Positions 13,482 through 64,000 of a stretch of 64,000 nucleotides of DNA are shown one piece after another. Location: positions 26,471 through 90,470 of the forward strand of contig JALQPE010002153.1 in the NCBI GenBank assembly GCA_030407315.1, in the 5' to 3' direction. The position numbers and the translations under genes are program-made. Under the pieces are notes generated by a model. It was not told the origin of the DNA and did no database searches. It saw only the letters and a program-made list of their open reading frames with translations. This stretch comes from Asparagopsis taxiformis (Eukaryota; Rhodophyta; Florideophyceae; Bonnemaisoniales; Bonnemaisoniaceae). The stretch's first letter is position 1. Every line of letters begins with the position of its first letter.

Positions 13482-13970
13482 AACCTAGATCGGAAGTCTA
13501 GCTTCCTGGAGGGATTCTTGATTCTCAAGACTATCCTCTGACCAGTCCTGTGCTGTCGCCAATTGTATTCCCTATACATCCTATTCCACTTGTTGGCTGT
13601 TAGCTAGGTGGACCGACAGGGTCACGGATACGGGTAACGCAGGCTTGATAGGGGTAAGGACTTGGACTAAGAGGGGTGGAGAGGAGATAGGAAAACTCGA
13701 GGAAAGTTGGGTACGGTCGACTCGAGAAACTTTCTTATAGGGTAAGGACACCGAAGGGTTTACATCGTAAACTGGTGGGGATATCCCGAACGGATCGTTG
13801 AACCACATTCCCTGAGGTGGGTGTGATCAGAGTGCTGAAATTCCTCTCTCCGCGGGTAGAGGACCCGTCGTCAAAGGACGAATCCTTTCAAAAATTGGAA
13901 ACTGGAAATTTGTTGTTGAAGAAGAAAGAAGTTTTTTTAAGGTTTTAAGTTTTGGAAGAACACTGTCATT

Positions 13971-39530: not shown

Positions 39531-40469
39531 TTAGATCCAACGGACACCGTGGATCAACGATATTCTTACCTTCCGGCTGTGACTTGGCCGTTTGAAACGA
39601 GCGCGCTCTTTTTGACGTGCGGTCCGTTTCCGATGCCGAGCCACTATAGCTGGGGGAAGGTTCGCTTCCGGCTCCCAGGTATCCTCCTCGGGGGCGTACC
39701 CCAACCAGCGTACACGGAAATAGGATATGCCATCCTCGTCTACCCATTCCTCGATAAGGTCGTCTATCGTATACTCCTTGGAGTGTTCCTCGGAGTCACT
39801 GTCGACCGGCGTCGGACTGACCAGTTCGCTTGCGTCCTGCGTTACCCGTGGGTAATCTCCGCGTACGATTGGCGCGGGGGTGCTTCCTTGGGGATTGCGC
39901 GGGTCGGATACCGTATTCCCGGATGGCGGGACCGCCCTATGTGCCGGTAGAAGCGCTTCGGAACCCGGTTCCGTCTGTACTTCGTTCGCCCGGGGGCGAC
40001 GCGGCAATCGACTTCTTGCATTAGCGGTTTCGCGGCCTTCCTTCTCACCGTCGCTACCAGGCTGCACCGGTCCATGACCCGGGGCTGGGCGTACGCGATC
40101 CGAACTAATTCTCTCGGGAATTCCGTCGACAAGTATGTCAAACGTGTGACCTTGGTTAGATATAACCGTATACGGACCCATCGATTGGAAATCCAACTTG
40201 TTCCGGGCTCGCCCGAGTATAGTCGTCTCCTGGGAAGTATTGCGCAAGTCGATATAGACTGCGTCCCCGGCTCGGATGCGGCCATTTGGTGCTCGCACCG
40301 CCTTATCGAAGTCGCGCTTGTACCGGGCTTGCATTTTCGAAAGCGAGGAATTAGCGCGCGCATACAACCCACGTAGCTGCCGGCGCCAAGACTCAAGCGT
40401 CCAGGCTTCATCACCTTTGAGTGTAACATCCTCCAAGCCTATCGGCGGCGGCGCGCGCGTCAAGACCAA
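39531..40469 (-). pseudogene. Integrase C-terminus and chromodomain of element D
   Basis: A 312-residue frame. It begins in the post-core part of integrase (QARYKRDFDKAVRAPNGRIR, then GDAVYIDLR). It then has a GPYTVI/ILVDG beta module with a GPF/Y-like segment, a disordered linker, and a textbook chromodomain: YTIDDLIEEWVDEDGISYFR, VRWLGYAPEEDTWEPEANL. Chromodomains bind methylated histone tails and steer integration to heterochromatin; the aromatic residues Y, W and W are present. It is offset by a frameshift from the preceding integrase frame. Confidence 0.85.
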
Positions 40470-41299
40470 TTCGAAGGGAATTGGACGGGGAGATATTCGT
40501 CCCCGTTGCGATGATCCTCAGCCACGTAATGGCGCAGCATAGACGCGAGCGTCCGATTGAATCGTTCGACTTGACCATTCGTCTGCGGGTAATACGTAGT
40601 AGTAGTCACCGGCTTAATACCCAAAATGACGCAGGCGTCGACGAAGGTCTTAGAACGAAACTGGGGTCCATTATCCGACAGGATAGTCTTAGGTGCCCCA
40701 TAAGTAAACACCCATTCCTCCACAAAGGCTTTCACAACCAGTCTAGCTTGTATCGAGCGCATGGCCACGAGCCTGCACAGCTTAGAATAACGGTCCATGA
40801 TGACCAGAACGTGTAACTTTCCTCGGGAGGTTTTCGGTAGAGGGCCCATGAGGTCTATGGCGACGTCCTCAAGTGGCCTAAGGGCCGGGAACAACTTCAA
40901 GGGGTTGGTATGGCGGGACAGCTGCATCCTATCCCTGGCGCATGTTTCGCATCCTCGCACGGTGGCGTGCACATCGACGACCATGGTCGGCCAATAAAGT
41001 CCCTGTCGTAGAGTATCGTACATCCGCCTCACCCCTGGATGTCCAGCGGTGGCGGAGTGGTGATAGTTACGCAACAGCCGAGGCCGTAGCGATTCGGGCA
41101 CGAGGACCTGTGGGCGAATGAGCGCTGGCAGTTTCCTCGCGAGAATCCCGTCTTCTGTAAGAACCACTTGCTGGTCCACTCCGTCATCCATACGTTTGCG
41201 CATAGTTTGACAAAACTCATCAACCAGTTGCGCTTGGATCCACTCATCCCTCGAGATGGCTTTGGGTACCAACTCGTGAGTGGAGACAAAACATGGCAC
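40460..41299 (-). pseudogene. Integrase of element D
   Basis: 280 residues with an H2C2 finger (HHSATAGHPGVRRM and CETCARDR) and a DDE core. The core residues are D in VAIDLMGPLP, D in TILSDNGPQFRS and E in NGQVERFNRTL. The enzyme inserts the cDNA into the genome. It lies in a different frame from both neighbours, so either indels or frameshifting must be invoked. The catalytic residues are all retained. Confidence 0.85.
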
Positions 41300-43874: not shown

Positions 43875-43906
43875 ACAGGGTCTCGAGGCGCTCGGAGGCG
43901 GTTCCC

Positions 43907-45952: not shown

Positions 45953-46040
45953 TACAGGATCCTGTAGTCGTACGTACGATGCTCACCAGCGGAGATGTTT
46001 TAGCAACCTAGGTTGATCAACAGCGTCCCGAACGTTTCTA

Positions 46041-47330: not shown

Positions 47331-47335
47331 ACATA

Positions 47336-47496
47336 ATTTTATTTCATAGTATTTTCTAGAATTAGTTCGACATCGAACTACAATTCTATGGTGGGTATAA
47401 AGAGGCATGGTCAACTCCGTCTTGGGGATCGGAGGCATCATCGATCATTCAACAAAACAACTACCACTCAGCTATCCCGTATACACATTCGTTTCA
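47336..47496 (+). repeat. 5' LTR of E2, second half
   Basis: ATTTTATTTCATAG... to CGTTTCA. It continues the LTR from 32274, with the TATA box GGGTATAAAGAGG near 47395 and small deletions relative to E1. Confidence 0.9.
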
Positions 47497-47594
47497 CTGG
47501 TAGCATCGCTTTCTACGGGCGCACTGAGTGAGCAGTTCGGCAAACGCCGGCCGACTGCAAGCTCTTGGCTGAAAAGCAATCGTTGGGAGTTATT

Positions 47595-47810
47595 GAACAC
47601 CTGAGGGCAGGGGTGCGAGGTGTAAGAACTGTAGTGTCTGCTACCCCTTGAGCAAGGGTAAGTTACCTGAGGGCAGGAAGGCCAGGTAACTAAGGGCCTA
47701 CAGGAGGGACTGTAAGTGGTCAACCCGAGGGCAGGAGAGCCGGGTTGTACCTTAGGGCAGGAGGGCCAGGTAGTGTCTGAGGGCTGGAGAGCCAGACATC
47801 CCACTTACAG
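47595..47810 (+). ncRNA. Leader hairpin cluster of E2 (decayed copy)
   Basis: The same five AGGGCAGGARNGC loops as in E1. The first stem is broken in this copy (GTGCGAGGTGT instead of GTGCCAGGTGT), while others still pair. Useful as a comparison for structural constraint. Confidence 0.7.
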
Positions 47811-48298
47811 AACCTAGATCGGAAGTCTAGCTTCCTGAGGGATTCTTGATTCTCAAGACTATCCTCTGACCAGTCCTGTGCTGTCGCCAATTGTATTCCC
47901 TATACATCCTATTCCACTTGTTGGCTGTTAGCTAGGTGGACCGACAGGGTCACGGATACGGGTAAACACAGGCTTGATAGGGTAAGACTTGGACTAAGAG
48001 GGGTGGAAAGGAGATAGGAAAACTCGAGGAAAGTTGGGTACGGTCGACTCGAGAAACTTTCTTATAGGGTAAGGACACCGAAGGGTTTACATCGTAAACT
48101 GGTGGGGATATCCCGAACAGATCGTTGAACCACATTCCCTGGGGTGGGTGTGATCAGAGTGCTGAAATTCCTCTCTCCACGGGTAGAGGACCCGTCGTCA
48201 AAGGACGAATCCTTTCAAAAAAATTGGAAACTGGAAATTTATTGTTGAAGAAGAAAGAAGTTTTTTTAAGGTTCAAGTTTGGGAAGAACACTGTCATT

Positions 48299-49077
48299 AT
48301 GTCGTTATTGAAGCCCAATAAGCCCCGACATTCGATGGAACGCGTGATGCGTTTACTGTTCGGACGTGGCTACACTCTGTTGGAAGGTACATTTCTCTCA
48401 TTCAGGTAGGCTCGGATGCAGAAATATCCGATAAACAAGCTATTGATTTCGCATCAACGTTCATGACAGGGGTGGCTGCCAACTGGTGGTTTACCGTTGC
48501 CAACGGAGCGAAAATGCCTGATTCTTGGGAGGCCTTCTCAAACCTGGTTATTCAAGAGTTCGTTCCTCAAGATAGTTCTGTTAGAGCTCGCGATAAGCTC
48601 AGAAAGTTGAAACAGAAAACAAACGTTTCTGTCTATCTTTCCGAGTTTAGGAACATCGTAATCAATATCCAGGATATGAGTGAGGGTGAGAAGTTGGCTC
48701 GTTTCTGTGCAGGTCTTAAGGCTCATATTCTTCTTGATGTTCGCAAGAACAATCCATCGGACCTTGATGCCGCTGCAAACATTGCTCTTAGCGTTGATGG
48801 TGCTTATTACGGAGCTGGGATCTATACAGGAAAAGTTGTTCCTTCAAGTTATTCCGGGTACGCTCCCATGGAAATCGGCAACTTCGAGAAAAGCCATTCC
48901 ATGAATGCCCAGAAGAGGAAGGATATTCGTGAGAACCTATGCTTTGTATGTCACAAGCCCGCTGCAGAGCGGATAGGCACAAAGGGGAAGTCAAGAAGAG
49001 GCTTAACACGAACAACACCCAGGTTCATTGGGGAGCACCAAGTTCCTTTCCACAGGAAAACTAGTCGGTCCTCCTAA
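48299..49077 (+). pseudogene. Gag of E2
   Basis: It begins at the same ATG as E1 gag. It loses phase after about 10 codons through a one-base deletion in the CCCCC run, and regains gag sequence from 48463 (TGVAANWWFTVANG) to the knuckle. There another lost base converts HKPGCRAYRH into HKPAAERIG. Otherwise more than 95 percent identical to E1 gag by eye. Non-functional capsid remnant. Confidence 0.85.
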
Positions 49078-50326
49078 AAACAAGTTATACGCTCAGGATG
49101 GACCTGAAAGGAGTGTGAATGTTCTATGCGCTGATGCGCAAGTTAAGAGACCAGAAAAGCCAGGAAGGGCTGTTCCAAGGCAGGAGAAGGGCCGTGTAGA
49201 GCCGAGAGTCTTGGAAGCTGAATCAAATACTATTGTTGGGAAAGAAAGCATCACTACTGATGACCCTATACCAGTAGATCCATTATTGGTTTTCCATGGA
49301 AAGTTGAATGGATTACCAGTCAAAGTATTGAAAGATGATGGATGCAATACCAACGTAGTAGGGGCCGAGTTTCTGAGGAAGCAGAAATCTCGAGGAAATT
49401 TCATGATTCAGAAAGAGAAAATACAAGTCTCACACTCTCGAAAAGTTCCACGGAAGAATCATCTGAAGTAATCATCAAAAGAACATTGAATATGGGTTCA
49501 CATACCTATACATCAAATTGGGTTGTTGCCAATTGTAGGTATGATGTTCTTTTGGGGATGCCATGGCATGTCGCCCACAATCCAGTTATCGATTACAAAA
49601 AAAGGATTGTGAAATGTGGCCATCAGTTGCTTCACGCCTGTAAAGATCCTGATGATCCAAGGATTCATGTGACGAATCTTGGAGTGAGAAATTCAGAAAA
49701 ATGTTACGAAACAGGAAGAACAGTAATGACTTTGAAGTGTATCAAGTGTTCGAAAAGAAAAATATTCAGGGAATGAAAGGTTCCAAACACAGTGAGAGGT
49801 TGGGGAAGTTACTGACAAAGTACCAGGAAGTGTTCAGAAGTGATCTTCCAGATGGACTTCCTCCCAAGCGAACAGTAGATCACGCGATCGATGTTCAGAA
49901 AGATGCTAAACTCCACTGAGACCTCTATTTCAGCTGTCTCCCGCGGAACTAAGAGCAGCTAAGGAATATGTCGAGGAAACTGCTGAGAAAGGAAAAATAA
50001 GATCAAGTAAGTTACCTTATGGAGCTCCTCTGTTCTGTCAAAGAGAAAGACAAGCTTCGTGGAGTAGTCGATTATCGAGCTTTGAATCGAATCACGAAGA
50101 GGACCAATGTTCCATTGCCGAGATCTGATGAAATGTTTGATCGCCTTGGGGGATCAAATATTTTTCAAAACTAACCTCAAACGGGCTCCATCAGATCAGG
50201 GTAAGCCGGGAAGACATCGAAAAAACAGCGTTAATACAAAATATGGGCAGTTCGAATATCTTGTTCTGCCTATGGGTCTGTGTAACGCTCCTGAAACGTT
50301 CCAGACCTTGATGAACCAAATTTCTA
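49028..50326 (+). pseudogene. Pol of E2, truncated in reverse transcriptase
   Basis: Protease region with KDDGCNTNVVGAEF (without the 6-bp duplication of E1). It is frameshifted near 49445, 49690 and 49910, then shows scattered reverse-transcriptase blocks (GQFEYLVLPMGLCNAPETFQ) up to 50326. The YMDD motif and everything after it are absent. The break point is followed at once by the GCAGTA-rich repeat tract. Confidence 0.85.
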
Positions 50327-50334
50327 CACTACCG

Positions 50335-50720
50335 AGTTTGAGATTAAAAAATGTAGTAAATTTACTGCCTGAGGCAGTAAAAATCACTGCCTGAGCAATG
50401 TAGTGCCTGAGGCAGTAAAATTACTATTTTAATTTTTTCAGTTCTAGTGCCGCAGGCAGTAAAATACAAAATTTCCTGGCAGTACGGTATGTAGCAGAAT
50501 TCAGTACTGTACGATAGCAAATTCTAGTAATTTTTGCTGGTACCACAGGGCAGTAGTGCAATGCAGTGATTTTTGATGATTTCTGCAATGGAATGTACTG
50601 CCGTACAGTACTGCCCTGGCAAATGACCTGGCATTAGAATCAGGCAGTAAAATATACTGGCTCCGGCAGTGAATTGTACTGCCTGCAAGTACTGCCTTGA
50701 TAGTAATTGGTGATTGGTAT
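50335..50720. repeat. GCAGTA-rich inverted-repeat tract
   Basis: More than a dozen copies of CAGTA/TACTG occur, several as palindromes such as TACTGCCTGAGGCAGTA (50379 region) and CTGCCGTACAGTACTG (50600 region). No coding sequence. It could be a decayed miniature transposon or satellite at the junction with the right-hand gene block. Confidence 0.6.
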
Positions 50721-51024
50721 TTTCTGAGATTCAATGTTGCAATAGTTGTCCAGGATAGGGTTGTACAATGTGTTCGCATGTGAGTTCAAGTAGAGAAGAG
50801 AGGAAACTATTCTGAAGCTACTAGTAGTGAGAAGTGTAGAGGATGCATGGTCACATGGAAATGACCGTTACAAAAAAGGTAGGAGAAAATCGGTCGTTTT
50901 CCGAGGATATGAGTAGAGTAGTTGGCATTATTTGTTACTATTGCTAGCATTCTAGTTCCAGGAAAAGCGTTTGGAGTGACACTCTGCGATTGGAACGAGA
51001 GGCGAAGGCGAATTTTGACGGAAG

Positions 51025-52548
51025 ATGGAATCTCAGCGTCGTGAGGAAAATCCAAATGACTGCCTAGCAGGGATTATTCGAGAGGGATTCAGGACAGTGA
51101 CTGGGGAAGTTCGTCGTATTGGGGAGAGGATGGATGAAATCGACGATGATCGAACGTCCCAACGCCAGCAAATCGAAAAGCTGATGAGTCGCGTCGAGTT
51201 TATTGTAACGGAACTACAGGGTGTGAAAGACATCTGTGATGGTTTATTACAGCAGAGTCAGGGCACTTCGAAGAAGGGGATGACTGACAAGGACAGGGAC
51301 CGTTTGCGCATCTCGCAGTCAGCAGAACTATCGTTTTCTTACAATTTTCTGTGTGCAGTATTTGGAACTGTTGTACCTTTGCTGGTCGACAAGATTGATG
51401 CTGGGGCGACAATTTACACCAACCAAGGAATCTACGACCTCCGTGGTTGCAGGTTGCTCTCTGCAATGATGTTTGCGAAGCAGAGCAATGACAAGAGGGA
51501 TGTGTTCCAATCAAACACCGGGAAGAACAACATCGAGCTTCGATTCCAAGTGGTGATGTCTCTCCTGCGGAACATTCAGAAGGAAAAGTCGGGTACAGGC
51601 CGTACAGTGGAAGGCTCGAGCTCTGGACGCGATTCGAATGCGTTCAACGTCTGGAAGGAGAACAAGTACATTCCGGACAAAATAATCGAAGAAGTTGTTT
51701 ATGGTGCCACTGGCGATGGCCGAAACCAGCCTGCAGGAAGCATTGACGGAGGGGCTAGGAAGCGGAGGAAAACAGATGGAAATGGTGGACAGTTGAGCAA
51801 GCGTGAAATATCTTTGGCTGTTACGAAAGTTGCGCTGACAAAGGTGCTCGGTTTCCTGAACAAGTCTAGAGAGCAGGTGCGCCATCGATTCCTTGTCGAA
51901 CTGGGGTTCGCTCTAGTGTTGGAAACGGACGCCTCTATCACTTTCGAGTTTCCAACTCACGATCTCATTCGAGATATGGATGTTATCCCCGATACCCGTG
52001 TGACCAACGGAAATCTAAGGCCTGAGGAACGGAAAGTTGTGGATGACAAGAATTCCGAGATCTTGATACAATTCATCGCTGAGCGGAAAGAGATGGTTGT
52101 CATCATTCAGTACGAAGTCGAGATATCGGGATGTGTGGCCAAAAGGATGATTCGAAGGAGAATCAATATCCTGGAGGTAGCCCTGAACACTGCAATTGCT
52201 TTCCTTCAATGCACGAGTAGAATGGTTTTCCTGCGACGTTCCTGCAATTCACTCAGATTTGTCTATGCAATCGCTTCCGGGATTCTAGGAATTTTCAAGG
52301 TACAATCAGGTCAGACCTTCGAAGAAAGTGTACAAGACGAGCTCAAACAATTAGGAAAGGCGATGTTGCCGAGTGACCGAATCTGTAAGAGGCATCTCTG
52401 TGAAGATGTACTGACAATTACTAACGAAAAATTCGATGAACAACACTTGGAACAGCGTAGTACCGCGTTTGAGGAGGATAGCGGACATGGAAATGAAGAA
52501 GATGGGAGTGAAAGCTACGTTGAAGTTTTCCTTGATGAGGAAGATTGA
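51025..52548 (+). CDS. Unrecognised nuclear-looking protein, 507 aa
   Basis: ATG 51025 (MESQRREENPNDCL). Residues 15-75 form an amphipathic helix/coiled coil (EVRRIGERMDEIDDDRTS, QQIEKLMSRVEFIVTELQG). Residues 90-165 are hydrophobic-helical. A basic cluster ARKRRK (residues 244-249) fits a nuclear signal. Residues 260-420 look globular, with two helix-rich repeats. The last 40 residues are highly acidic (YVEVFLDEED). No family is recognised. It converges with the 462-aa gene, with palindrome array 1 in the 605-bp gap. Position beside the ParB genes suggests it could belong to the same module, which is inference. Single exon, clear frame. Confidence 0.7.
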   Translation: MESQRREENPNDCLAGIIREGFRTVTGEVRRIGERMDEIDDDRTSQRQQIEKLMSRVEFIVTELQGVKDICDGLLQQSQGTSKKGMTDKDRDRLRISQSAELSFSYNFLCAVFGTVVPLLVDKIDAGATIYTNQGIYDLRGCRLLSAMMFAKQSNDKRDVFQSNTGKNNIELRFQVVMSLLRNIQKEKSGTGRTVEGSSSGRDSNAFNVWKENKYIPDKIIEEVVYGATGDGRNQPAGSIDGGARKRRKTDGNGGQLSKREISLAVTKVALTKVLGFLNKSREQVRHRFLVELGFALVLETDASITFEFPTHDLIRDMDVIPDTRVTNGNLRPEERKVVDDKNSEILIQFIAERKEMVVIIQYEVEISGCVAKRMIRRRINILEVALNTAIAFLQCTSRMVFLRRSCNSLRFVYAIASGILGIFKVQSGQTFEESVQDELKQLGKAMLPSDRICKRHLCEDVLTITNEKFDEQHLEQRSTAFEEDSGHGNEEDGSESYVEVFLDEED

Positions 52549-52865
52549 TAATGGAGGCGTAGAAGTAAAGTTTCATAGCCTTTGAAGGGAACCGACTACT
52601 ACGAGAGACTTAAGAGAAATAAAAACCTTTAGATGTGAAACTGTCTAGGATGTGCGTGGAAAAGGTGCACCGCAGCATGCTACGTACTACATGGTGTACT
52701 GGAAACAATAGCTATCGTTCTTTTTTTTCAGCTCACTCTGCGACTAGAAAGCGTCATGTCTACTACGGTTAAGAGTTTTACCCTGTCATTGAGCACGCCT
52801 CTAGTACCTTCGGGGCCTGTGCAGTCCCATCCAATGCCGTAGCTCCACCTGGCAGAGTAGTGCGG

Positions 52866-53050
52866 AAAATAATACCGGGTATTATTTTGAGGAATATTTT
52901 GCCAAGTGGAGGGCAATCATTCGTACCGACTACAGGCGATCCCTGGACGAAACCTAAGAATAATACCCGGTATTATTTTCAGGGATATTTTGCCAAGTGG
53001 AGAGCAATCATTGTTACAGAATGCAGACAGTCCCTGGACGAAGGAACAGG
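52866..53050. repeat. Palindrome array 1 (two sites, unit about 93 bp)
   Basis: AATAATACC-G-GGTATTATT at 52866-52888 (11-bp arms including flanks) and AATAATACC-C-GGTATTATT at 52959-52977. Each is followed by GATATTTTGCCAAGTGGAG-type sequence and ends TCCCTGGACGAA. It lies between the 3' ends of two convergent genes. Confidence 0.9.
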
Positions 53051-53153
53051 CCAGAAAGATACGGAGCATGTATCGATGGATACCATCGACTTAATCGAGG
53101 TTGACTAACTCTAAACAGTCTTGTAGACCCATCTAGAAAAGATAGAAAACGTT

Positions 53154-54542
53154 TTACTCGGAGGCGACATTGTGTACGGTAGGATGAGGTGCATCGACAG
53201 GGGAACTATTCTGTCCAACGATAACGTCATGTCCAATTGTGTCTAGCTCGCTGCAGATGGTGTGTCCACTGAAAATGCATGCTGGGAGGTTCAAGTATGC
53301 AGTTCCCAACACAACATTCTTGAGAACGCGCTCGAAAGTTCCATATGGACGAGGGCCTTGAACAGGTTTCCAGGTCAGTGAGAACGAGTTGGCCAGTTTG
53401 AAATTTTTGCTGTCCGGCAGCTCAAAGTTCTCTTGCATTTCTCGACTTGAGAGGAAGCGAGCTTCCAAAGGATACGAATAGCTGCAATTGACATAGTCGT
53501 ACTCATCAGATTCTCGAGTAAGAACGACAGTACTACTCATGTTTTCAGATCTCCTGTATAAAGAGGAACCAACAAGAACAGCCTTTGTAGATGGAATAGA
53601 ATCTTCTGAAGCACTGTCTGCTAGAGTTCCCAAAACTCTAATGACAGAAGACCCAGAATCGTGTCGTGTTTTCTTCCACTTGAGGATAGTAGAGTTCGTG
53701 CATGTAGACATGGAAGGAGCTAAAGTATTGCAGAGGTCATAGTATGTTCCAAAGTGGATCGATAGCTCTTTATCTCTCCCAGTTGAAATTCGAACCGCCT
53801 CGACGCTCGGCAGGAAAATTGTGTTTGGGTTGTTCTTCTCTTCGCATAGCCTGGAAAGTTGTAAAAACTGTTCAAGCGAGCAATCTGCTCTTGCCGTCAC
53901 ATAGTCTTGCACCAAGGAGCTCACTTCCCGGCCTGTTTCAGACTTCGTGATTTTGGAGGACAGGGGTTTGTCCAGTTTTAAGCCAACTCTCTGGAACAGG
54001 TAGTCGCACACAATGTTTCCGAAGATGGGTCCAGTAGCGCTTGATGAACCGCGACAGTTGAAAATCTGCCTTTCGAGGTAGGATACCTTTTGAAACAGCT
54101 TGGATATGTCCTCATTGATGTTAGGACCAGGAGGACTCTCATCGCAAACTAAGCGCGGCTCGGACTTAGATCGACTCAACATGTTTTCTTTGCAGTCTTT
54201 TTTATGGAAACTGTCTTCACCCGCCGACGAGATCGTCTGCTCTAGTGCTAGTTGCTCTCCAAACCTCCAACGTAGCATGTTTCCAGAGTCAATGTCCAGC
54301 AGCGAATTGTTCTTGAATAATTTTGCTGTAGAGACTGACTGGTCGAAACCGTGTTCAGATTGATATTGCAGCGTAACAAACAAGTTTCCAGTCAAACGAT
54401 GTTCTCCGGACGCGTCCGGCTTGGCAGTACTCAAAACTTTGGCGCCCCACCAAACCTTTTTCTGTTTCCTTCCTCTCGTTCGTAAACTCCATTCTACTTC
54501 AATGACTGATCCTTCGGAGACAAACTCTGTTGGGTCTTGCAT
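53154..54542 (-). CDS. Unrecognised protein, 462 aa, possible Tudor/agenet-like N-terminus
   Basis: ATG at 54542 (MQDPTEFVSEGSVIEV). Residues 11-95 have a beta-rich pattern, GSVIEVEWSLRT, then KVWWGAKVL, LFVTLQYQ and MLRWRFGEQL. This resembles small barrel domains of the Tudor/agenet/PWWP class, which read histone or DNA marks, but similarity is by pattern only. Residues 130-165 form a short coiled coil (ISKLFQKVSYLERQIF). The rest is globular and unassigned, with several Ser-rich turns. A TATA box lies about 118 bp upstream (54660-54667). It is divergent from the ParB-methyltransferase gene (731 bp apart), so the two could share a promoter region. A chromatin-reader role is inference. Confidence 0.65.
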   Translation of the reverse strand: MQDPTEFVSEGSVIEVEWSLRTRGRKQKKVWWGAKVLSTAKPDASGEHRLTGNLFVTLQYQSEHGFDQSVSTAKLFKNNSLLDIDSGNMLRWRFGEQLALEQTISSAGEDSFHKKDCKENMLSRSKSEPRLVCDESPPGPNINEDISKLFQKVSYLERQIFNCRGSSSATGPIFGNIVCDYLFQRVGLKLDKPLSSKITKSETGREVSSLVQDYVTARADCSLEQFLQLSRLCEEKNNPNTIFLPSVEAVRISTGRDKELSIHFGTYYDLCNTLAPSMSTCTNSTILKWKKTRHDSGSSVIRVLGTLADSASEDSIPSTKAVLVGSSLYRRSENMSSTVVLTRESDEYDYVNCSYSYPLEARFLSSREMQENFELPDSKNFKLANSFSLTWKPVQGPRPYGTFERVLKNVVLGTAYLNLPACIFSGHTICSELDTIGHDVIVGQNSSPVDAPHPTVHNVASE

Positions 54543-54659
54543 AATGGGTATTCCCAGGAAAAGAATGGAAGAGGTATCGACTGAGGAAACAGGAAAGATG
54601 ACGAAACTGTACAGCTTGTATCCGTGTGGAATGATAGAGAGAAAATTGGTAGGTTACTA

Positions 54660-54667
54660 TTTTTATA
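54660..54667 (-). promoter_or_regulatory. TATA box for the 462-aa gene
   Basis: TATAAAAA on the minus strand, about 118 bp before the ATG at 54542, within the 731-bp divergent intergenic region. Confidence 0.5.
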
Positions 54668-55273
54668 CTTGCATAACTCGTAACGGTTATAAATTACTAA
54701 CACCTGTCCCAAGCGACATGGGAGACCAACATCGTGATGATCATCTCTCTTGAACATTCATCACCATATAATAAAGATCTTATTCCGAGCTGCTCGAAGC
54801 CATTACCAGTAGATTGGGTGTATTTTTCGCTGTGGCAATATAACGGAACCTAGACGTGTATGTATAAAGAGACGCAGGGATCGAGAATGATGCAGTGAAA
54901 TCAATGTGTATATTTATATACTGGTTGTAAGAACGAGTCTACAAGTTCGAACAGAAGATGAAGTCCTCTCAAGAGATTGGTTTTGAAATCTCCGATGGCA
55001 GATTTCAAACTCAATCTCTCGAGGGGACTTCAAATTCAAAACAAAAATGGAAATGTCCGTTGGCGAAATAATTGTATTGAAAGGCCGCCGAAGAACCTAA
55101 TTATTCCTCATTACGTACCCTACCTAGCCAAAGTATACCTGAAAATATTCAGGTTAACTCTTTAACTGTGCATTTAAGGTTTATCAAGATTGTTGCCGAA
55201 GGTTTTTAACGCCAGGTAGGAGAGAAGATTGTTTTCTGCTGGTGGCTGATTGAGGTGAAGAATCTATTTCTCG

Positions 55274-58200
55274 ATGGCCTCTGAGAAGAGAAATCCAGCG
55301 AGCACCTCTGGGCGTCCCCTTCATGGTGAGCGGCGCAATGGGCTATTGCACATCGACCCATTCAAGATCAAAAGATATGTCGAGATTCGAGAAATCGACT
55401 ACAGGCACGTCGATGTTATTGCCGAGAGCATTCAGGTTTACGGCTACAATGACAACAACCCAATTACCGGTCGGATCATTGACGGTGATGTACAGGTGCT
55501 GGATGGTGCGCATCGTTCGAAAGCTGTAATCAAGCTCATAGAGAACGGTGAGCTTCCGCGTGATTTCACTGTTCCTATGATTGAAGAAGAAGTCGACATA
55601 TCTCCGATTACAAGTGCTGCTTTCCTTCTAGATAGTGTGAAAGCATCAAACGCGAACGATATGGCATCCAGGCAGAAGAGGATGACTTTCATTGAGTACC
55701 TGAATCTTACTTTGGATCTTAGAGATGGGTACTGGGAGCGAAACGCAGGTGAAAAACAAGGGAGCTCAAGCATGGTTACAATTCGCGACGTGAATATGCC
55801 ATCCATTAGGCGATGGCTCGCCGTGGGATCTCAGCGCGAAGATTTGGCAGAAACTGTGCTGAGGCAGCCACAGTACGAGAGTTGCTTGTCAATTCTTCGT
55901 GTGCTTCGCCCCTACAGTCGCATAGAAGAACCCAATCCCAAAATGGTTCGCTGTCTGTGGCAGTTGTTCTGTATTGTATGGGGAAGGCCGGTTGAAGTTC
56001 AGAACAATTTTGCGATGAAGGAGTTTCCCACATCTCTCGAGAAAAGAGCATCAGTCGGCGAGCAGTTGTTTGGGATGTCTACAAGTGGTGAAATTGCTTC
56101 TCCATTGTGTCGCGAAGTCCTCACCTGTGAGTATTTTCGTTCTGGAAGAAGTGCACAGGGTAGAACATTAACAGAAGAAGACAAAGTATTTGGAAGGCTG
56201 ATGTTTATGATTTCATTTGTGCACATTGCCCTCACTAGACGCAGAAATGCACCCATTCGCCGGGGTAGGAAGCGTCGTAGAACTGGGAGGGATACAGAGA
56301 CTTCTACATTCGCCCCTTTCCAGCGCACAAGAGCAAACGGAGAGTCTGTGGGTGTCGTTTTGGAAAGGGTCATGTCTGCCTGGGATACAACAGCGATGAT
56401 TCTGGGCTTCGAAAGCGCCTACATGATGTGTCGCCCATACATGGTTTTCGACTCTGAGAAATTCCAATTCATCTGTCTTGCTAATCGTACTGACGGGTGG
56501 GCACATCCTGACCACTACTCAGATCTTCTGCTTCCGTCCCCGGTAGTGAAACTCCGCGAGAATGCAGGTTATCCAGGCACTTTGGATATCTCTGTTGATG
56601 CAAGGTTGAGGTCTTTGACAGAAGCCGTACTAGTGTCTGTGTATGACTGTATGATAGGCATTGATGTATTCGGATCAAGTACGAACCAGATGGAAGGGCT
56701 GCGCACTAAATTTTTCCATCAGCCTGACCGGTTCGGATTGAACGCCTTCATCGAAGCAAGAATAGAACAATCCATCGCATTGGATGGTCACGAAAGACTC
56801 AAGGTATGGAAGAACTGGAACCGTGAAATGCGTGTGAAGCCAGTTGATGTCTGCGACTTGAAAATTCTCTACGAGACTGAACAGCGCAACGCAGCATCCA
56901 GATCTCTTTCTCGAGAAAGAGATCGTCTTGAGTCGAATGAATCAATGCAGCACAGCACTCGCCGTTTAGGTACAGGTGGAAGGAAACCTACCAATGACTC
57001 TGGATCCCAGTATACATCCAGCATGGATGGGAGGGCTTCGTCCGCAGTGGACACGGTTATGCAAGATGTTGCGGAGGATACACCGTCAGCGGAGGCAGTG
57101 GGTGAGGAAGAGGGGGTACCGGATCATATTGTGCAATTGAAAAAGGTCATGAAGAGATTTTGCGTGGCTTACAACTGTACAGCCTCGAGGTTAGTGCACC
57201 GGGTTAACACTGATTCCATTGGCATGCTTTCAGGGAATACTATTGATGGACAAGCACAACTTGTGCTCACCGATCCACCCTTCAACACGCGGAGGGAGAA
57301 AGGCAAGACCAATTCAGACTATGATGACATCAATAGCGCACAAATGTTTCGTACTGGAAAGGACATTTCTCGAATGCTGCGCCCTGGAGGACATGCCCTG
57401 ATATTTTCCAGTATCAAACAGTTGGTTGGGTGGGGAGAAGCTCTTCAAAATGCAGAAAGCGGGGAACAATCCATGCGTACAGACGATGTTCCTCTCATTC
57501 TAAGCCGTCGTCCCTACGTATTCATCCAAAACCCAATGAACAAATCGTGTTCATTACACAACATTCACGAGTTTGTTGTGCACAGTTTCAAACGTGGGAT
57601 GGGAGCTGCCGCGTTTGAAATGGTTGATTATTCTTTGCATAACCGTGACCTTTCACGACATCCAGGGTACGTGAACGCAATCGACAACTGCCCAAAGCTC
57701 GGACCTGGTGAGTCATTGAACTTCGAAGACAAAAGGCTACGTGCGGAGCAGAAGCCTCTGTCCATACTTCGAGAGCTTATTTCAAGGTTTTCAAAGCCAG
57801 GAGACATTGTGGTAGATCTATTCTCCGGAACGTATTCTACTGCAATAGCTTGCATGACAATGAGAGATGGTCTGTATCGCAAGTTTATTGGATGTGAAAA
57901 AGACGCCACATGCCATGGATCAGCTCAGCCGTTGTTGCTGGATTGCTTTGTTAGGCAAGGTCGAGATGGAGTTTTTGGGGAGGCAACCAAAAATGACATA
58001 TCGAGTATTCTCGCTAACAAAGAATGGAATTACTCGATAAGGAGCAATGTAGGAAGTGAAAGACTTCGACATCGAAGTGATGCGCCTGATGGATTCCCGT
58101 CGGTATCTTCACTACCACTGCATATGTTGCGATTTGTCTCCTCTGTTGCGCGGGATCAAAGCATGCTCCGAAGACTTGCCGAAGTCCCAATGAATGAATG

Positions 58201-58783
58201 GGGCGTAGAAGATTTAGGCAAGGTTTTCTCCGTTGACCCTGAGATGATGCTTGCAGTAGATGCCTCCTTTCACAACGTTATTGTTGCTGCATCGACAGTT
58301 CGAGAGGGAGGATTGGGGGTTTTTGCCGCAGAAGATTTAGAGAGGGGCTCTGTTGTTGGATGGTATAATGGGACAATTTTATACGGGAAGATTGGGGAGA
58401 ATGAACCGCAACGCAGTCGCTTGTACGGACCGGACGGGTTCGGTTGTACTGGTGAAAGATTCCAAAACTTCAACATGGAGATGGAGACCAGTGTCATCGG
58501 AGAAGAAGCACCGGTCGACAAGATATATCTTGTACCAGCGGAATACAATGTCTGCAGCTACCTCAACGACAGTAGGACCATTGACGGAATGGAGAGAGTT
58601 GCAAATGTGCAACGCAGAAAAAATGCAGAGTTCCGAGTTCACAAAGACGTCAATCCTACTTGCGACTTCAAGTATGCAGTAGCAAAACCTGATCTCATCC
58701 TAGCGCAGGTTGTAGTAGATGTTCGAGCTGGGGAAGAGATATTCGTTGACTATGGATCGCGCTACTGGACTGCAGAGAAGTAG
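55274..58783 (+). CDS. ParB-domain / amino-DNA-methyltransferase / SET-domain fusion, 1169 aa
   Basis: ATG 55274. Residues about 20-110 match the ParB/Srx N-terminal fold: HIDPFKIKRY, then SIQVYGYNDNNPITGRI, and the signature DGAHR at 77-81. Residues 110-640 are helical and unassigned, with a basic RGRKRRRTGR stretch. Residues about 640-880 form a beta-class amino-methyltransferase. Motif IV is TDPPF (D667-F670), followed by DYDD, and motif I comes later as VVDLFSGTYSTA (D848-G852). Such enzymes add methyl to adenine N6 or cytosine N4 in DNA. Residues about 1000-1169 form a SET domain: GGLGVFAAEDLERGSVVGWY, VCSYLNDSR in place of the usual NHS, and EIFVDYGSRYW with the catalytic-type Y1160. 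All active-site motifs except the His look intact. One uninterrupted exon. ParB-methyltransferase fusions are common in phages; adding SET is eukaryotic. Confidence 0.88.
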   Translation: MASEKRNPASTSGRPLHGERRNGLLHIDPFKIKRYVEIREIDYRHVDVIAESIQVYGYNDNNPITGRIIDGDVQVLDGAHRSKAVIKLIENGELPRDFTVPMIEEEVDISPITSAAFLLDSVKASNANDMASRQKRMTFIEYLNLTLDLRDGYWERNAGEKQGSSSMVTIRDVNMPSIRRWLAVGSQREDLAETVLRQPQYESCLSILRVLRPYSRIEEPNPKMVRCLWQLFCIVWGRPVEVQNNFAMKEFPTSLEKRASVGEQLFGMSTSGEIASPLCREVLTCEYFRSGRSAQGRTLTEEDKVFGRLMFMISFVHIALTRRRNAPIRRGRKRRRTGRDTETSTFAPFQRTRANGESVGVVLERVMSAWDTTAMILGFESAYMMCRPYMVFDSEKFQFICLANRTDGWAHPDHYSDLLLPSPVVKLRENAGYPGTLDISVDARLRSLTEAVLVSVYDCMIGIDVFGSSTNQMEGLRTKFFHQPDRFGLNAFIEARIEQSIALDGHERLKVWKNWNREMRVKPVDVCDLKILYETEQRNAASRSLSRERDRLESNESMQHSTRRLGTGGRKPTNDSGSQYTSSMDGRASSAVDTVMQDVAEDTPSAEAVGEEEGVPDHIVQLKKVMKRFCVAYNCTASRLVHRVNTDSIGMLSGNTIDGQAQLVLTDPPFNTRREKGKTNSDYDDINSAQMFRTGKDISRMLRPGGHALIFSSIKQLVGWGEALQNAESGEQSMRTDDVPLILSRRPYVFIQNPMNKSCSLHNIHEFVVHSFKRGMGAAAFEMVDYSLHNRDLSRHPGYVNAIDNCPKLGPGESLNFEDKRLRAEQKPLSILRELISRFSKPGDIVVDLFSGTYSTAIACMTMRDGLYRKFIGCEKDATCHGSAQPLLLDCFVRQGRDGVFGEATKNDISSILANKEWNYSIRSNVGSERLRHRSDAPDGFPSVSSLPLHMLRFVSSVARDQSMLRRLAEVPMNEWGVEDLGKVFSVDPEMMLAVDASFHNVIVAASTVREGGLGVFAAEDLERGSVVGWYNGTILYGKIGENEPQRSRLYGPDGFGCTGERFQNFNMEMETSVIGEEAPVDKIYLVPAEYNVCSYLNDSRTIDGMERVANVQRRKNAEFRVHKDVNPTCDFKYAVAKPDLILAQVVVDVRAGEEIFVDYGSRYWTAEK

Positions 58784-58907
58784 GACAGTATACGCGTCCA
58801 ATTACAGATATCAAGAGTACCATCAGCAATAAAAAGTCTTGCATCTGAACTCGTACAACGTTGTAGTACTACAATCTACCTGAGCGATAATAACAGACTT
58901 TCATTTG

Positions 58908-59490
58908 CTGAGCGGTGCCAGTCAGCCCACGCCCAATGATAGTGCTGCACCTGGGCTTTGCCATACCAAAATAATACCGGGTATTATTTCGGGTGTGGCC
59001 AGCCCAAGTGCAGCTCTGCCATTGGCTGTCATGAACGCAGCGGCAGCCAATGGAATTGCTGCACCTGGGCTTTGCCATGCCAAAATAATACCGGGTATTA
59101 TTTTGGGTGTGGCCAGCCCAAGTGCAGCTCTGCCATTGGCTGTCATGAACGCAGCGGCAGCCAATGGAATTGCTGCACCTGGGCTTTGCCATGCCAAAAT
59201 AATACCGGGTATTATTTGGGTGTGGCCAGCCCAAGTGCAGCTCTGCTATTGGCTGTCATGAACGCAGCGGCAGCCAATGGAATTGCTGCACCTGGGCTTT
59301 GCCATGCCAAAATAATACCGGGTATTATTTTGGGTGTGGCCAGCCCAAGTGCAGCTCTGCTATTGGCTGTCATGAACGCAGCGGCAGCCAATGGAATTGC
59401 TGCACCTGGGCTTTGCCATGCCAAAATAATACCGGGTATTATTTTGGGTGTGGCCAGCCCAAGTGCAGCTCTGCTATTGGCTGCCAGGTT
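58908..59490. repeat. Palindrome array 2 (five sites, unit 113-114 bp)
   Basis: Cores AATAATACC-G-GGTATTATT start at 58970, 59084, 59198, 59311 and 59425. Between cores every unit holds a second inverted repeat, GTGCAGC...CCATTGGCTG facing CAGCCAATGG...GCTGCAC. Units are 98-100 percent identical. The array sits between the convergent ends of the two ParB-domain genes. Confidence 0.95.
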
Positions 59491-59814
59491 TGCATCTCAA
59501 CTACAGTTAGTATACTAAGAAGAACAATTCAAGACCTTGGTTACTCGAGTGATGTGGAATTGTGGCAGTCTTGCAAAACTGTGCCATGCATGTAGGAAAG
59601 GAAAAGAGATCAGTCTGTACGATGTAAGGTGTAGAAGCTATGCGGGGTGAGAGGTAGAGGAACTCTAATAGTGCAGTAGACTGACCGTGCTAATATTTTC
59701 AAAGTCGTGAATAGGAGTAGATTTAGTTGTGGTAAAGGAAGTATACTACCGAAGCTAGCTTAGGATTGGCAGATGCTGCCTGTAGAGGGAGAGGCAAAGC
59801 AGTATTCTTGCAGA

Positions 59815-62784
59815 TTATCGCGCACTAGGTGCATCCCAGTAGTTGACTGTTTCGATAGCATCCGCCAATTCTTCTTCGTCACTTAAAAGGTAGAGATGAG
59901 AACGAACCGGAAGACCATATGTTAGGCGATTTTCCGCTGAACTACTGAATCCCTTGCCTCCATGGTAGAAGTCACCACGACCGATGAAGAGAGAATACGG
60001 TGGCACGTAGATGTCCATAACAGGCGTCTTGTACTTCTCAGCGTCTGCACGCGTCAAACAGACGTGGCTGAAATACGCTCCACGAAGCCAGAACCCATCA
60101 GCCGCGCTTGCCATCAGAAAGTACGATCTTCCAGGTGGGAAATCGGAATCATTGATGACCACCGGTAGGTCTGTGTGCAAGTCTTGATCTGGAGCACCAT
60201 CAGAGGTCAGCAAAAGACGTAAACCGGTTTTAGGAAAGGCCACAGGCTCATGGATTCCTAGGCCCAAGTACATTAGCTCGGCACAGATTGCTTTGCCGAC
60301 CTCGAGAATCATCTTGTTCTTGAATTGATGTTCATCCATCTGCTCGAGATCGTCGCAAATCTTCTTCCTTGAGATAGAGAACCTTCCCAAACGAGAGGCC
60401 TGTTGCTCTGCTGTTACCTCACCCTTGTTTCGAATCTGATGCCAGGGATCATTGGAACTGTCTTCAGCAGAAGAATGAACAGGTTTGAACTTCTGGGCGT
60501 AGAACGTGAACAGTTCATGTGCTGCGTTGCCCACAGTCGAAGAACGGAAGATACCACTGAGTACATGGGCACCCAAGAGATTGAGAGTTGACCTAGCTGT
60601 TGCAAAGAACTTCTCTGCACAGCAAGCTGGACCACTGCACGCTATACAATTCATATCGGCAGCAGCTGCACTCAAAATCTCCTGTCGGATTGTTTCGTAC
60701 AGCTTGCTGTCGATATAGTACTTGACCCTAGAGTCTGACGGTATGGTGTTCGGGAGAATATCCATAATCCGTTCATCGACTACCCTGTCGGGGAGGGGAT
60801 TTTCCTGCTCATCGCTGAACAATGGAATCTCCTCGGTTGAACGTTTCACCGTACGGTTAGCTTCCAGTCTTCTGCGCTTCGGAAGGGGCTCTTCGGACTC
60901 TTCTTCTACCTCCGACTCTGCCTGACTGTCGCCGCCAACCCGTAGACTCTCCGTTCTCTGCCGTTTCGACCTGCGAAGTGTCTCGACTGGCTCATTCACC
61001 GCAAGCGGTGGTGCATTGAGAGGGAGACGGAGGAGAACAGATCCCAATTGCTTCTCAGAACCTGCCACAGTGGCATCAGGGGTTCCTTGAGCCTGCTCAA
61101 CTGCAGGAACGGAAGTGGCAGGAGCAGGAGGGGTAGCAGGAGGGGTGGAAGGGGCGGGAACGGAAGCGGCAGGAGGAGGGGTAGCAGGAGGGGTGGAAGG
61201 GGCGGGAACGGAAGTGGCAGGAGGAGGAGGGGTAGTAGGAGCAGGAGTAGAAGGGGTAGAAGGGGTAGAAGGGGTAGAAGGGGTAGAAGGAGTAGAAGGG
61301 GTAGAATGAGCACGAGGAGCAGGAGGGGTAGAAGGAGCAGGAGGGGTAGAAGGGGCAGGAGGAGTAGGACCAGAACGGGTAGAAGGGGTAGAAGGCTCAT
61401 CTGATTGGGGCGTAGATGGCTTCGGCGCATCTTCAGATGGCTGTTCATTGTGAACAATGACCCTTTGGTCTTCTTCCATGTCCACAACGCCCGTGGAAAA
61501 GCGAAGCTGCTCATACATTTCGTCGGAGACGAGAGCATGCTTCGTACCGCTGTTATCGTCGGTATTGAAGTGCAGGAGGGTCTCCGCGATACTGTTCGCA
61601 ATAACAGTCTCCTTTCCTGACCCAGTGTTCTTGAGCTCGGAGTAGAAATGGTCGAGCGGAGGCTCCATCATTTTGTGAGCAGCAACCGGCTCGGACATCT
61701 TGAACACTTCAATCAAAACACGAACGAAAGGATTACCAAATCCTCTTGTCGTCCTACTCAACTGACGCAGATCTCGCATGCGTGTCCAGAGAGCTGTTAT
61801 GAGCAAGATGAACCTTTGCTGATACTCCGAGCCGCGACGGAAGTCTGCCATGAAAACGAGATCCATGTTGCAGCCATACATGTCTACGGACTGCTTGAAG
61901 ACATCGTCGTTGATGTCACGGCCTTCTTTAACGGCCCTTTCCTGTTCCGCAGCGAGAATTTCCTTGGTGAACATGCTCGGTACGGAACTCCAGAACTCAA
62001 GCGCTTTGTTGTTCACAGTCCGGAAGCCTTTCGCAGCAGTCACGTGCTTGTTGATGGCTTGGTAGCCCAGTTTCGATATCGACAACTGGCTGTCCATGAT
62101 GACCTGAATGCACTTCCGATTCGGTTCACCCAACATGTCCTTGGTCGTGAGCAGTTGGACCACAGAACACACTCGGTCTGCCAAAGAAACAAGGGCAACA
62201 TCATGCGTGAGTGTGTTTGCTTGAATGGACAGCCCGAGTACTTCAAAAGGTGTGAAGTACTCATCGGAAACTTCTTCTGTCCCTGGGCGCCTGATCAAAG
62301 CCACATCGATGTTCCTGAATGACGCAGCATACGGATGTTGCCCTTCCGGGTCTTCACGAATGCACTTCTGGAGAGCCGCAACGCGATGGCCACCATCGAT
62401 GTAGAACGTTTGAAGGGTGGGGGTTGTGCTGCCTTCACTGGGAAGGAGCATTTTGCAGGCAAGGATTCGGGAGATTGAGGAGGTGAATCCTTCCCTCAGG
62501 AACTTCTCCTTCAGCTCAAGCACTCTCCCTTCCCTAATATGACGAGAGAATAGGGGGGGTCTGTGCAAATCCAAGGGAGACAGCCTGTGGTCAGCTTTGG
62601 GACAGTCTGACAACTGAACCTCGGCGGTGACAGAGTTATCGTGACCAGGGCTGCGAGAAGGGGCGCGAGAGCGAGAAGGGGCGCGAGAGCGAGAAGGGGC
62701 GCGAGAGCGAGCGGAGGCCCGACCGCGAGTCGAAGCGCGAGCAGGGGCGGGGGCAGAGGGTTTGGAGCGAGTGCGAGGAGCCAT
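59815..62784 (-). CDS. ParB-like domain / 2-oxoglutarate-Fe(II) dioxygenase-like fusion, 989 aa
   Basis: ATG 62784. Residues 1-50 are Arg/Ser repeats (ARSRAPSRSRAPS). Residues about 65-180 carry a ParB-like fold with the signature YIDGGHRVAALQK (D130-R134), matching DGAHR of the partner gene. Residues 180-440 are helical. Residues about 455-590 are Pro/Thr/Ser low complexity. Then come a basic KRRRLE segment and a Cys group CIACSGPACC near residue 715. The C-terminus has double-stranded beta-helix landmarks: H870-T-D872 (DLHTDLPVV), H941 in GDFYHGG and R953 in SAENRLTYG, the HxD...H...R set that binds iron and 2-oxoglutarate. Relatives such as AlkB and TET/JBP oxidise methylated bases, but prolyl or histone substrates are also possible. 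It converges with the methyltransferase gene across array 2. Confidence 0.8.
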   Translation of the reverse strand: MAPRTRSKPSAPAPARASTRGRASARSRAPSRSRAPSRSRAPSRSPGHDNSVTAEVQLSDCPKADHRLSPLDLHRPPLFSRHIREGRVLELKEKFLREGFTSSISRILACKMLLPSEGSTTPTLQTFYIDGGHRVAALQKCIREDPEGQHPYAASFRNIDVALIRRPGTEEVSDEYFTPFEVLGLSIQANTLTHDVALVSLADRVCSVVQLLTTKDMLGEPNRKCIQVIMDSQLSISKLGYQAINKHVTAAKGFRTVNNKALEFWSSVPSMFTKEILAAEQERAVKEGRDINDDVFKQSVDMYGCNMDLVFMADFRRGSEYQQRFILLITALWTRMRDLRQLSRTTRGFGNPFVRVLIEVFKMSEPVAAHKMMEPPLDHFYSELKNTGSGKETVIANSIAETLLHFNTDDNSGTKHALVSDEMYEQLRFSTGVVDMEEDQRVIVHNEQPSEDAPKPSTPQSDEPSTPSTRSGPTPPAPSTPPAPSTPPAPRAHSTPSTPSTPSTPSTPSTPSTPAPTTPPPPATSVPAPSTPPATPPPAASVPAPSTPPATPPAPATSVPAVEQAQGTPDATVAGSEKQLGSVLLRLPLNAPPLAVNEPVETLRRSKRQRTESLRVGGDSQAESEVEEESEEPLPKRRRLEANRTVKRSTEEIPLFSDEQENPLPDRVVDERIMDILPNTIPSDSRVKYYIDSKLYETIRQEILSAAAADMNCIACSGPACCAEKFFATARSTLNLLGAHVLSGIFRSSTVGNAAHELFTFYAQKFKPVHSSAEDSSNDPWHQIRNKGEVTAEQQASRLGRFSISRKKICDDLEQMDEHQFKNKMILEVGKAICAELMYLGLGIHEPVAFPKTGLRLLLTSDGAPDQDLHTDLPVVINDSDFPPGRSYFLMASAADGFWLRGAYFSHVCLTRADAEKYKTPVMDIYVPPYSLFIGRGDFYHGGKGFSSSAENRLTYGLPVRSHLYLLSDEEELADAIETVNYWDAPSAR

Positions 62785-63194
62785 TGAAGGATGATGGAAA
62801 GCAGGAATGGAGAGAAGCTTGATTGAGTGTACGACCCCGATAACGACGATACAGAGACGATTAAGATAGATTTATTTCGCTACTGCAGTCTGATAAAGGA
62901 TCAAACGTGAACAATCCGTTTCAACTCTGATTTCAATTTTTTGTTTATTTCTAGACCACTTGACTCAGATCAAGAGTAATACTCGAAATTCAGTTAATTT
63001 CTGCGGCCAAATACAATCGCTATACGACGAGTTCACACTCAAAGTGGCTAAACAGGTACGAGTTGGTCATGGTGATTACCCCAAAACCACTCAAGTAATA
63101 ACTACATAATGCTGAAGTCACATACTTCCCAGCATTTTGCACCAACTCGTGGAGCTGATGCGTACATACCAAATGCATCTGTATTCAACATGAA

Positions 63195-64000
63195 CCACGA
63201 ATAAGTGGGCTTCGGCCAATGAGTGCACTGCACCTGGCTTGAGAAACTAGGAATAATACCCGGTATTATTTTGGCCTCCCAAACGCCAGGTGCACCAACG
63301 CCATTGGCCGGTGGTAGTTTGGACAACCTCGGCCAATGGGGTTGGTGCACTTGGTCTATACCGACCCAAAATAATACCGGGTATTATTTTGGCCTCCCAA
63401 ACGCCAGGTGCACAACGCCATTGGCCGAGGGTATCCGGCTACCACCGGCCAATGGGGTTGGTGCACTTGGTCTATATCGACCCAAAATAATACCGGTATT
63501 ATTTTGGCCTCCCAAAAGCCAGGTGCACCAACGCCATTGGCCGGTGGTAGTTTGGACAACCTCGGCCAATGGGGTTGGTGCACTTGGTCTATACCGACCC
63601 AAAATAATACCGGGTATTATTTTGGCCTCCCAACGCCAGGTGCACCAACGCCATTGGCCGAGGGTTCCGGCTACCCCCGGCCATGGGGTTGGTGCACTTG
63701 GTCTATACCGACCCAAAAATAATACCGGGTATTATTTTGGCCTCCCAAACGCCAGGTGCACCAACGCCTTGGCCGAGGGTATCCGGCTACCACCGGCCAA
63801 TGGGGTTGGTGCACTTGGTCTATACCGACCCAAAATAATACCGGGTATTATTTGGCCTCCCAAAACGCCAGGTGCACCAACGCCATTGGCCGAGGGTATC
63901 GGCTACCACCGGCCAATGGGGTTGGTGCACTTGGTCTATACCGACCCAAAATAATACCGGGGTATTATTTTGGCCCCCAAAAGCCAGGTGCACCAACGCC
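63195..64000. repeat. Palindrome array 3 (seven sites, continues past window)
   Basis: Cores at 63252, 63370, 63486, 63603, 63718, 63834 and 63950, spacing about 116 bp, with small core variants (no central base at 63486; an extra G at the last). Each unit has 21-nt outer arms GTGCACCAAC.CCATTGGCCG facing CGGCCAATGG.GTTGGTGCAC. This is the same plan as array 2 with different sequence. It lies about 450 bp upstream of the dioxygenase-like gene. Confidence 0.95.

Follow-up and report, generated by a model that had tools for sequence, protein, structure and literature searches.

A DNA transposon of the red alga Asparagopsis taxiformis encodes a protein predicted to join a DNA methylase to a SET domain

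The stretch of DNA analyzed here (64,000 nucleotides of the red alga Asparagopsis taxiformis, hereafter the window; positions 26471-90470 of contig C2027 in the 141.5-Mb genome, reaching up to the contig end) contains a gene, which we call M, whose product very probably joins a DNA methylase to a SET domain and is encoded by a transposon. M belongs, as an accessory gene, to a DNA transposon of the CMC/CACTA-like kind that holds several genes and is roughly 25 kb long, and this element has recently been amplified to well over a hundred closely similar copies. Since M belongs to a transposon, its likely target is the element's own DNA and its likely role lies in transposon control rather than in a host pathway. 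We favor the explanation that M is a self-targeted anti-silencing writer which keeps its transposon active; for this whole mechanism we estimate a probability of roughly 0.4. An earlier interpretation made from the letters alone (the sequence-only reading) was right about the domain identities, the motif order and the eukaryotic setting, but missed that the open reading frame (ORF) is part of a mobile element.

Gene M is one uninterrupted frame from ATG to stop (Table 1), in agreement with the single 1169-codon exon proposed earlier. The beta-class methyltransferase claimed for this protein is recovered: the Pfam model N6_N4_Mtase (PF01555) matches residues 662-879 (E 1.2e-13, 52 bits against a cut-off of 26.7), and motif IV (DPPFN, residues 667-671) precedes motif I (DLFSGT, residues 848-853), the order that defines the beta class. 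The C-terminal SET domain is likewise confirmed (PF00856, residues 1013-1161, E 2.2e-5, 25.3 bits against a cut-off of 22.4, 105 of 105 profile positions), and the catalytic tyrosine of its last motif is present as Y1160 in EIFVDYG. An AlphaFold model based on the 33-row family alignment introduced below has a mean predicted local distance difference test score (pLDDT) of 76.4 and a predicted template-modelling score of 0.50. The three domain stretches mostly reach a pLDDT of 75-97 per ten-residue block (with single dips to 67 in the methylase and 52 in the SET domain), and the methyltransferase fold is present. Structure look-ups with M list methylases only; as this is because the methylase domain fills the list, the missing SET and ParB rows are uninformative. 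In motif IV the D of DPPF or DPPY is taken to mean adenine methylation, which suggests adenine as the target base of M.

For the N-terminus the proposed ParB domain stands in part. The DGAHR signature is there, and two PHROG families match, phrog_1033 ('ParB-like partition protein', residues 38-131, E 1.3e-5) and phrog_4272 (residues 11-106, E 2.1e-7), each of which is matched by two of the six DGAHR-bearing family members. Using tblastn with residues 1-141, the best phage match is an annotated 'ParB-like protein' (E 2e-6) and the best plasmid match a 'ParB N-terminal domain' protein (E 2e-5). However, the Pfam ParB model (PF02195) is not reported at E<=1 for M or the six DGAHR N-termini, and a PDB search with a profile of these six brings up no ParB chain (E<=10).

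Relatives of M were collected with a single-sequence search (seven proteins) and a profile search (37 proteins), each of which scored only the roughly 8000 candidates that share most words. The alignment of 33 rows consists of the window protein and 32 others, some rows being ORF fragments; P0001 (99.6% identical to the window protein) and the distant methylases P0038-P0043 (E 7e-7 to 7e-4) were left out, and the tree was built without the short P0034. Identity between the aligned rows and the window protein ranges from 20 to 44%. The methylase columns are strongly conserved: D667, P669 and N671 are kept in all 32 rows with a letter (P668 in 31 of 32), and R823, E825 and Q826 as well as D848, F850 and G852 in 33 of 33. 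Y1160 of the SET domain is a tyrosine in 27 of the 31 rows with a letter. DGAHR occurs in six rows (window, P0002, P0003, P0012, P0016 and P0030), which all fall within one supported group of eight in the tree (98/98); the remainder of this group consists of P0013 and P0027, both of them shorter ORFs.

The methylase-SET fusion is conserved in these relatives, the methylase model being matched by all 33 rows and the SET model by 28 (E<=0.01). Because SET accompanies the methylase in these 28 rows, and because all 40 scored genome copies of M are full length, the fusion is not an accident of assembly or gene calling. It might still be argued that accidental domain matches or genes joined by misassembly have been taken for a fusion, given that the SET score is barely above its cut-off. 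Independent relatives sharing the fusion and near-identical copies on many contigs already refute this, and we regard it as extremely improbable. The sole named relative is P0025, an 'adenine specific DNA methyltransferase [Chondrus crispus]' with 30% identity over 608 aligned columns; like M it combines methylase and SET, but its ORF is without the DGAHR N-terminus and its name mentions just the DNA methyltransferase.

That M travels in a transposon follows from the copies. In the stretches fetched, the window and ten other copies share a common sequence from position 50327 rightward, and their left flanks differ by eye (in the C1778 copy the common stretch is one base longer at the left; copies are named after their contigs). 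The element begins at 50327 with CACTACCGAG and terminates beyond the window with CAGTAGTG. Most of the 11 copies start with CACTACCGAGTTTGAG (C1754 differs at the 17th base), the C285 copy with CACTACTGAG. The left terminus has 233 matches in the genome with up to one mismatch, against 0 for the reversed control. The right terminus GATTTCAGACACAGTAGTG, read from the C1754 copy, has 319 matches (control 0). Both ends are rich in subterminal GCAGTA/TACTGC repeats: there are 11 in the first 700 bp of the window's copy and 13 in the final 700 bp of C1754, against three in the 3.5-kb gene M.

End pairs were chosen by hand among the first 100 matches listed per end (for C1754 the right end comes from the sequence itself, for the others from the list). 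Five of them measure 24650 (C75), 25328 (C1754), 25714 (C337), 25946 (C582) and 25535 bp (C732), and two are longer (C718, 29040 bp; C107, 36995 bp); each of these seven pairs of 24.7-37.0 kb holds probe matches for M and for two further element genes, N and P. Seven pairs with the same two ends form a 15.1-kb class (15098-15101 bp; C59, C181, C212, C238, C511, C704 and C753), which may be a different or non-autonomous member, and seven further pairs measure 11687-12882 bp. The C9 and C1983 copies are cut by contig ends before the third repeat array of the element finishes.

A 2-bp target duplication is found in seven of the nine copies with both flanks read, namely in two of the four long copies (C337, TG; C582, AT) and in five of five from the 15.1-kb class (AA, TT, AT, AT, AC). 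Together with the CACTAC...GTAGTG ends this agrees with the CMC/CMCT transposons (EnSpm/CACTA, Mirage, Chapaev, Plavaka), for which passages of PMC12730594 give 5'-CA..TG-3' termini and target duplications of 2-5 bp. The 3-bp duplication of EnSpm/CACTA proper is seen in none of the nine copies; since the duplications are 2 bp and none is 3 bp, we do not file the element as EnSpm proper.

Probes of 30 bases (up to three mismatches, control 0 in each case) have 174 genome matches for M, 170 for N and 222 for P. At least 40 full-length copies of M are present, and 40 of the 40 scored are open over all 1169 codons without a stop. At the DNA level M was compared with the seven copies that score best apart from its own locus, which is listed as L020; in these seven, 0 of 3507 bases differ from the window. 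The neighboring gene T has at least 92 full-length places in the genome (98-100% identity, one with an internal stop) and gene U at least 85 (99-100%); U, T and M keep their order and a fixed spacing where they are listed together. A reading of M as a host gene was rejected on its own-genome copies (at least 40 full length), and N as a plain host gene was rejected as well, as N moves with the element (copies, 170 probe matches).

CACTA-type elements often capture genes, and M could be such a captured host gene, hitch-hiking without a role and decaying. The 15.1-kb class would fit, given that it has the same ends and that none of its seven contigs appears in the top 100 entries of the list of 174 M matches. 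Against it, all scored M copies are open, the M probe matches about as many sites as that of N, and the relatives keep their catalytic columns at 20-44% identity, as under long selection. We therefore consider a passive passenger quite unlikely.

Three tandem arrays in the window (Table 1) share the core AATAATACCSGGTATTATT, a perfect palindrome with 12 exact matches in the window where none is expected, all of them within the element; the whole genome has 2333 matches (control 0). A fourth array with a variant palindrome lies beyond the window (copies C75 and C1754), and the unit number of array 2 differs among element copies. Among the majority sequences of arrays 1-3 the whole core agrees and much of the spacer differs, with partly shared smaller boxes on either side of the core (around CCAATG, TGCACCTGG, CCAAGTGCA and CATTGG). 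This pattern fits candidate protein-binding sites. Viewed as a whole, the units resemble composite symmetric elements, with CCAATG/TGCACCTGG-like and CCAAGTGCA/CATTGG-like boxes at similar distances from the core. A separate imperfect inverted repeat with arms of about 30 bases was noticed by eye at 54960-55031, about 240 bases upstream of the start of M.

In the anti-silencing reading, the ParB-type N-terminus of M and its helical middle would recognise the element's own DNA, most likely the palindromic arrays. The CcrM-like domain would methylate adenine in the element DNA, and the SET domain would methylate lysine on nearby nucleosomes. The chromatin of the element would be kept permissive, and the transposase gene would stay expressed. 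Through M the element might in this way set chromatin marks on itself; enzyme activity, adenine as the base, binding to the arrays, SET action on histones and the activating effect are what we infer here. The anatomy is well supported: the joined domains with most catalytic motifs in place, the methylase-SET combination kept among relatives, both element ends, the 2-bp duplications in seven of nine copies, the number and identity of copies, the arrays and a transposase-like gene are all seen in the sequences. A single protein that locates its DNA site and there marks both the base and the nucleosome, as suggested earlier, is possible.

The activating direction is favored by the analogy with VANC proteins and by the title of PMC12695648, which connects N6-methyladenine (6mA) with permissive chromatin across eukaryotes (neither 'red alga' nor 'rhodophyt' appears in the main text of that source). 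According to the abstract of PMC10398659, the VANC proteins of Arabidopsis attach to tandem repeats in the VANDAL elements that encode them and trigger the loss of silent marks. We propose that M is analogous, as an element-encoded protein acting on the element's own non-coding tandem repeats, although VANDAL is a MuDR-type element and the likeness is offered purely as an analogy.

A number of observations weigh against the anti-silencing reading. SET motif III has N1098 (the same residue in 29 of the 32 rows that have a letter there) followed by D, where the canonical motif is NHS; the D is shared by 27 of the 32 rows and H occurs in one, so that the substrate and even the activity are less certain. 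Whether the effect is activating or repressive is not readable from the sequence: among solved SET chains KMT2C ranks first with the 33-row profile and an EZH2 chimera with a six-row profile, and this rank neither decides the direction nor gives a substrate. DGAHR is missing from 27 of the 33 rows (some of them ORF fragments), and the ParB part is therefore not essential to the fusion; on the tree the label needs at least three gains or losses when P0013 and P0027 are counted as true absences. The arrays could instead be terminators, satellites or replication-related. Two of the four long copies (C75 and C1754) have no matching 2-bp duplication, and the candidate transposase P matches neither a Pfam family (E<=1) nor a PDB chain (E<=10).

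The opposite direction has been considered as well. Dam silences or times transposition of some bacterial elements, and M might similarly methylate element DNA and histones as a form of self-limitation, with the host tolerating many copies. High copy number with near-perfect identity fits spread without immediate loss, the EZH2 chimera is the best SET chain with the six-row profile, and the bdelloid N4-methylcytosine silencing system (passages of PMC8885841) makes a silencing role a live rival. Yet amplification as recent as this speaks against a system that keeps its element silent, and the first rank of KMT2C with the 33-row profile points the other way, though sequence rank gives no substrate. 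All in all, self-limitation appears rather unlikely to us.

The other genes of the element bear on a further alternative. N and gene O, which lies beyond the window (L042:5636-9187, minus strand, 1184-codon open frame, seen in copies C75 and C1754), are paralogues with 32% identity, both with IDGGHR near the N-terminus and HTD...GDxYH at the C-terminus. M might serve in the transposition reaction or in extrachromosomal replication and segregation, where ParB-type proteins would load parS-like arrays and the methylase would mark ends or new DNA. The presence of one ParB-type (M) and two ParB-like genes (N and O) together with tandem palindromes in one element is in line with this, as are the bacterial and phage ParB relatives of the M N-terminus. 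However, the relation of N and O to the ParB region of M is weak (hhalign E 0.027, probability 1.8), none of the proteins U, T, N, O and P has a ParA-like family reported by Pfam, and the SET domain is left unexplained, which makes such a role unlikely.

The C-terminal HTD...GDxYH, which is conserved between N and O, resembles the HxD...H pattern of oxygenases dependent on 2-oxoglutarate and Fe(II). No profile supports this resemblance: Pfam reports no family there, and all chains that PDB searches bring up are unrelated and score E 1 or worse; the oxygenase is a possible lead. The N-terminal part of N finds phage hits at E 2 only, and P0008-P0011 match N only within a Pro/Thr-rich stretch. 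A larger scheme, in which ParB-family proteins would sit on parS-like arrays, M would write on DNA and histones, and the possible oxygenase of the paralogues would edit the marks to give a selfish chromatin domain with a private heritable state, is in our opinion doubtful.

Gene P also lies beyond the window (minus strand, 1247-codon open frame, copies C75 and C1754), with the motifs DYPA at 615, CHSC at 634, ERMHQPLK at 927 and HKNEH at 942. Passages of PMC12730594 describe two motifs, C(2)C and H(3-4)H, as a mark of CMC-type DD(E/D) transposases. As P has both without a Pfam or PDB match, it stays a candidate transposase.

Compared with CcrM and other beta-class N6-adenine DNA methyltransferases, M is eukaryotic and fused to ParB-type and SET domains. 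The motif I form expected in beta-class methyltransferases is FxGxG; M differs from CcrM-type enzymes in having FxG followed by T and F/Y. The N4CMT of bdelloid rotifers carries a chromodomain (passages of PMC8885841; 8s9m), in contrast to M with its SET and ParB-type domains, its DPPF adenine-type motif and its place in a transposon. Retrotransposons of dinoflagellates and charophytes carry C5 DNA methyltransferases (abstract of PMC5890265); as with M, a transposable element encodes a DNA methyltransferase, but these are C5-cytosine enzymes of retrotransposons, and that abstract mentions no histone methyltransferase. In fungi, DNA transposons including EnSpm carry TET/JBP genes, and in oomycetes Harbinger and MuDR elements carry SET genes (passages of PMC12730594 and references 9 and 10 there). 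These are DNA transposons with epigenetic enzymes like the element described here, and SET in transposons is thus already known; the enzymes occur singly, in other hosts and without a DNA-methylase-SET fusion in those passages.

Among the papers listed by our searches of the open-licence literature, none deals with a ParB-methylase-SET protein or with 6mA in red algae, which is not proof of absence. As far as these searches show, transposon-borne epigenetic enzymes are known and the fusion of DNA methylase and SET with a ParB-type N-terminus is undescribed there. In the passages cited above, transposon enzymes of this kind are described singly. If the proposal is true, marking of base and nucleosome would be joined in one transposon protein, making M a candidate natural dual writer with the element as its candidate target. 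Questions that become testable are adenine methylation in this alga, its presence on element copies, and a chromatin state imposed by the transposon.

Table 1. Features of the element and of gene M within the window
Feature	Position	Strand	Remarks and basis
DNA transposon (CMC/CACTA-like), left part	50327..64000	+	Shared sequence start in copies; continues past the window
Left terminus CACTACCGAGTTTGAG (variant CACTACTGAG in C285 and many further copies)	50327..50342	+	Genome pattern search
Subterminal GCAGTA/TACTGC repeats	50327..51026		11 in 700 bp
Gene U	51025..52548	+	About 507 aa; travels with the element, genome copies
Array 1, core AATAATACCSGGTATTATT	52868..53042		Two units, period 91; between convergent U and T
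Gene T	53154..54542	-	462 aa; travels with the element, genome copies
Gene M, ParB-type / beta-class DNA methyltransferase / SET protein	55274..58783	+	1169 aa; ORF, Pfam, PHROG, genome copies
ParB N-terminal-type domain with DGAHR	55331..55591	+	M residues ~20-106; PHROG, tblastn, AlphaFold model
Beta-class DNA methyltransferase domain (DPPFN ... EQK ... DLFSGT)	57143..57973	+	M residues ~624-900; Pfam, alignment columns, structure look-up
SET domain	58271..58768	+	M residues ~1000-1165; Pfam, alignment columns, AlphaFold model
Array 2, core AATAATACCSGGTATTATT	58943..59483		4.8 units of 114 bp; between convergent M and N
Gene N, IDGGHR N-terminus, C-terminal HTD...GDxYH	59815..62784	-	989 aa; probe matches, identity to O, weak profile match
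Array 3, core AATAATACCSGGTATTATT	63252..64000		6.4+ units, each about 116 bp; truncated where the contig ends

A viral origin of M was rejected: 12 viral-contig loci match around the methylase only (M residues 505-905, 24-48% identity), the SET domain not being part of that search. One viral contig holds the palindromic core at a single site (L013:560-578), which is probably due to chance. Rfam and tRNA scans of the 64-kb window found nothing. The element copy of the window is inserted in a Gypsy-like retrotransposon (47331-50326), which is 97% identical over 3.0 kb to another window copy at 12997-16017. A Gypsy-type element with a chromodomain after the integrase is also seen at 39531-46000 on the minus strand.

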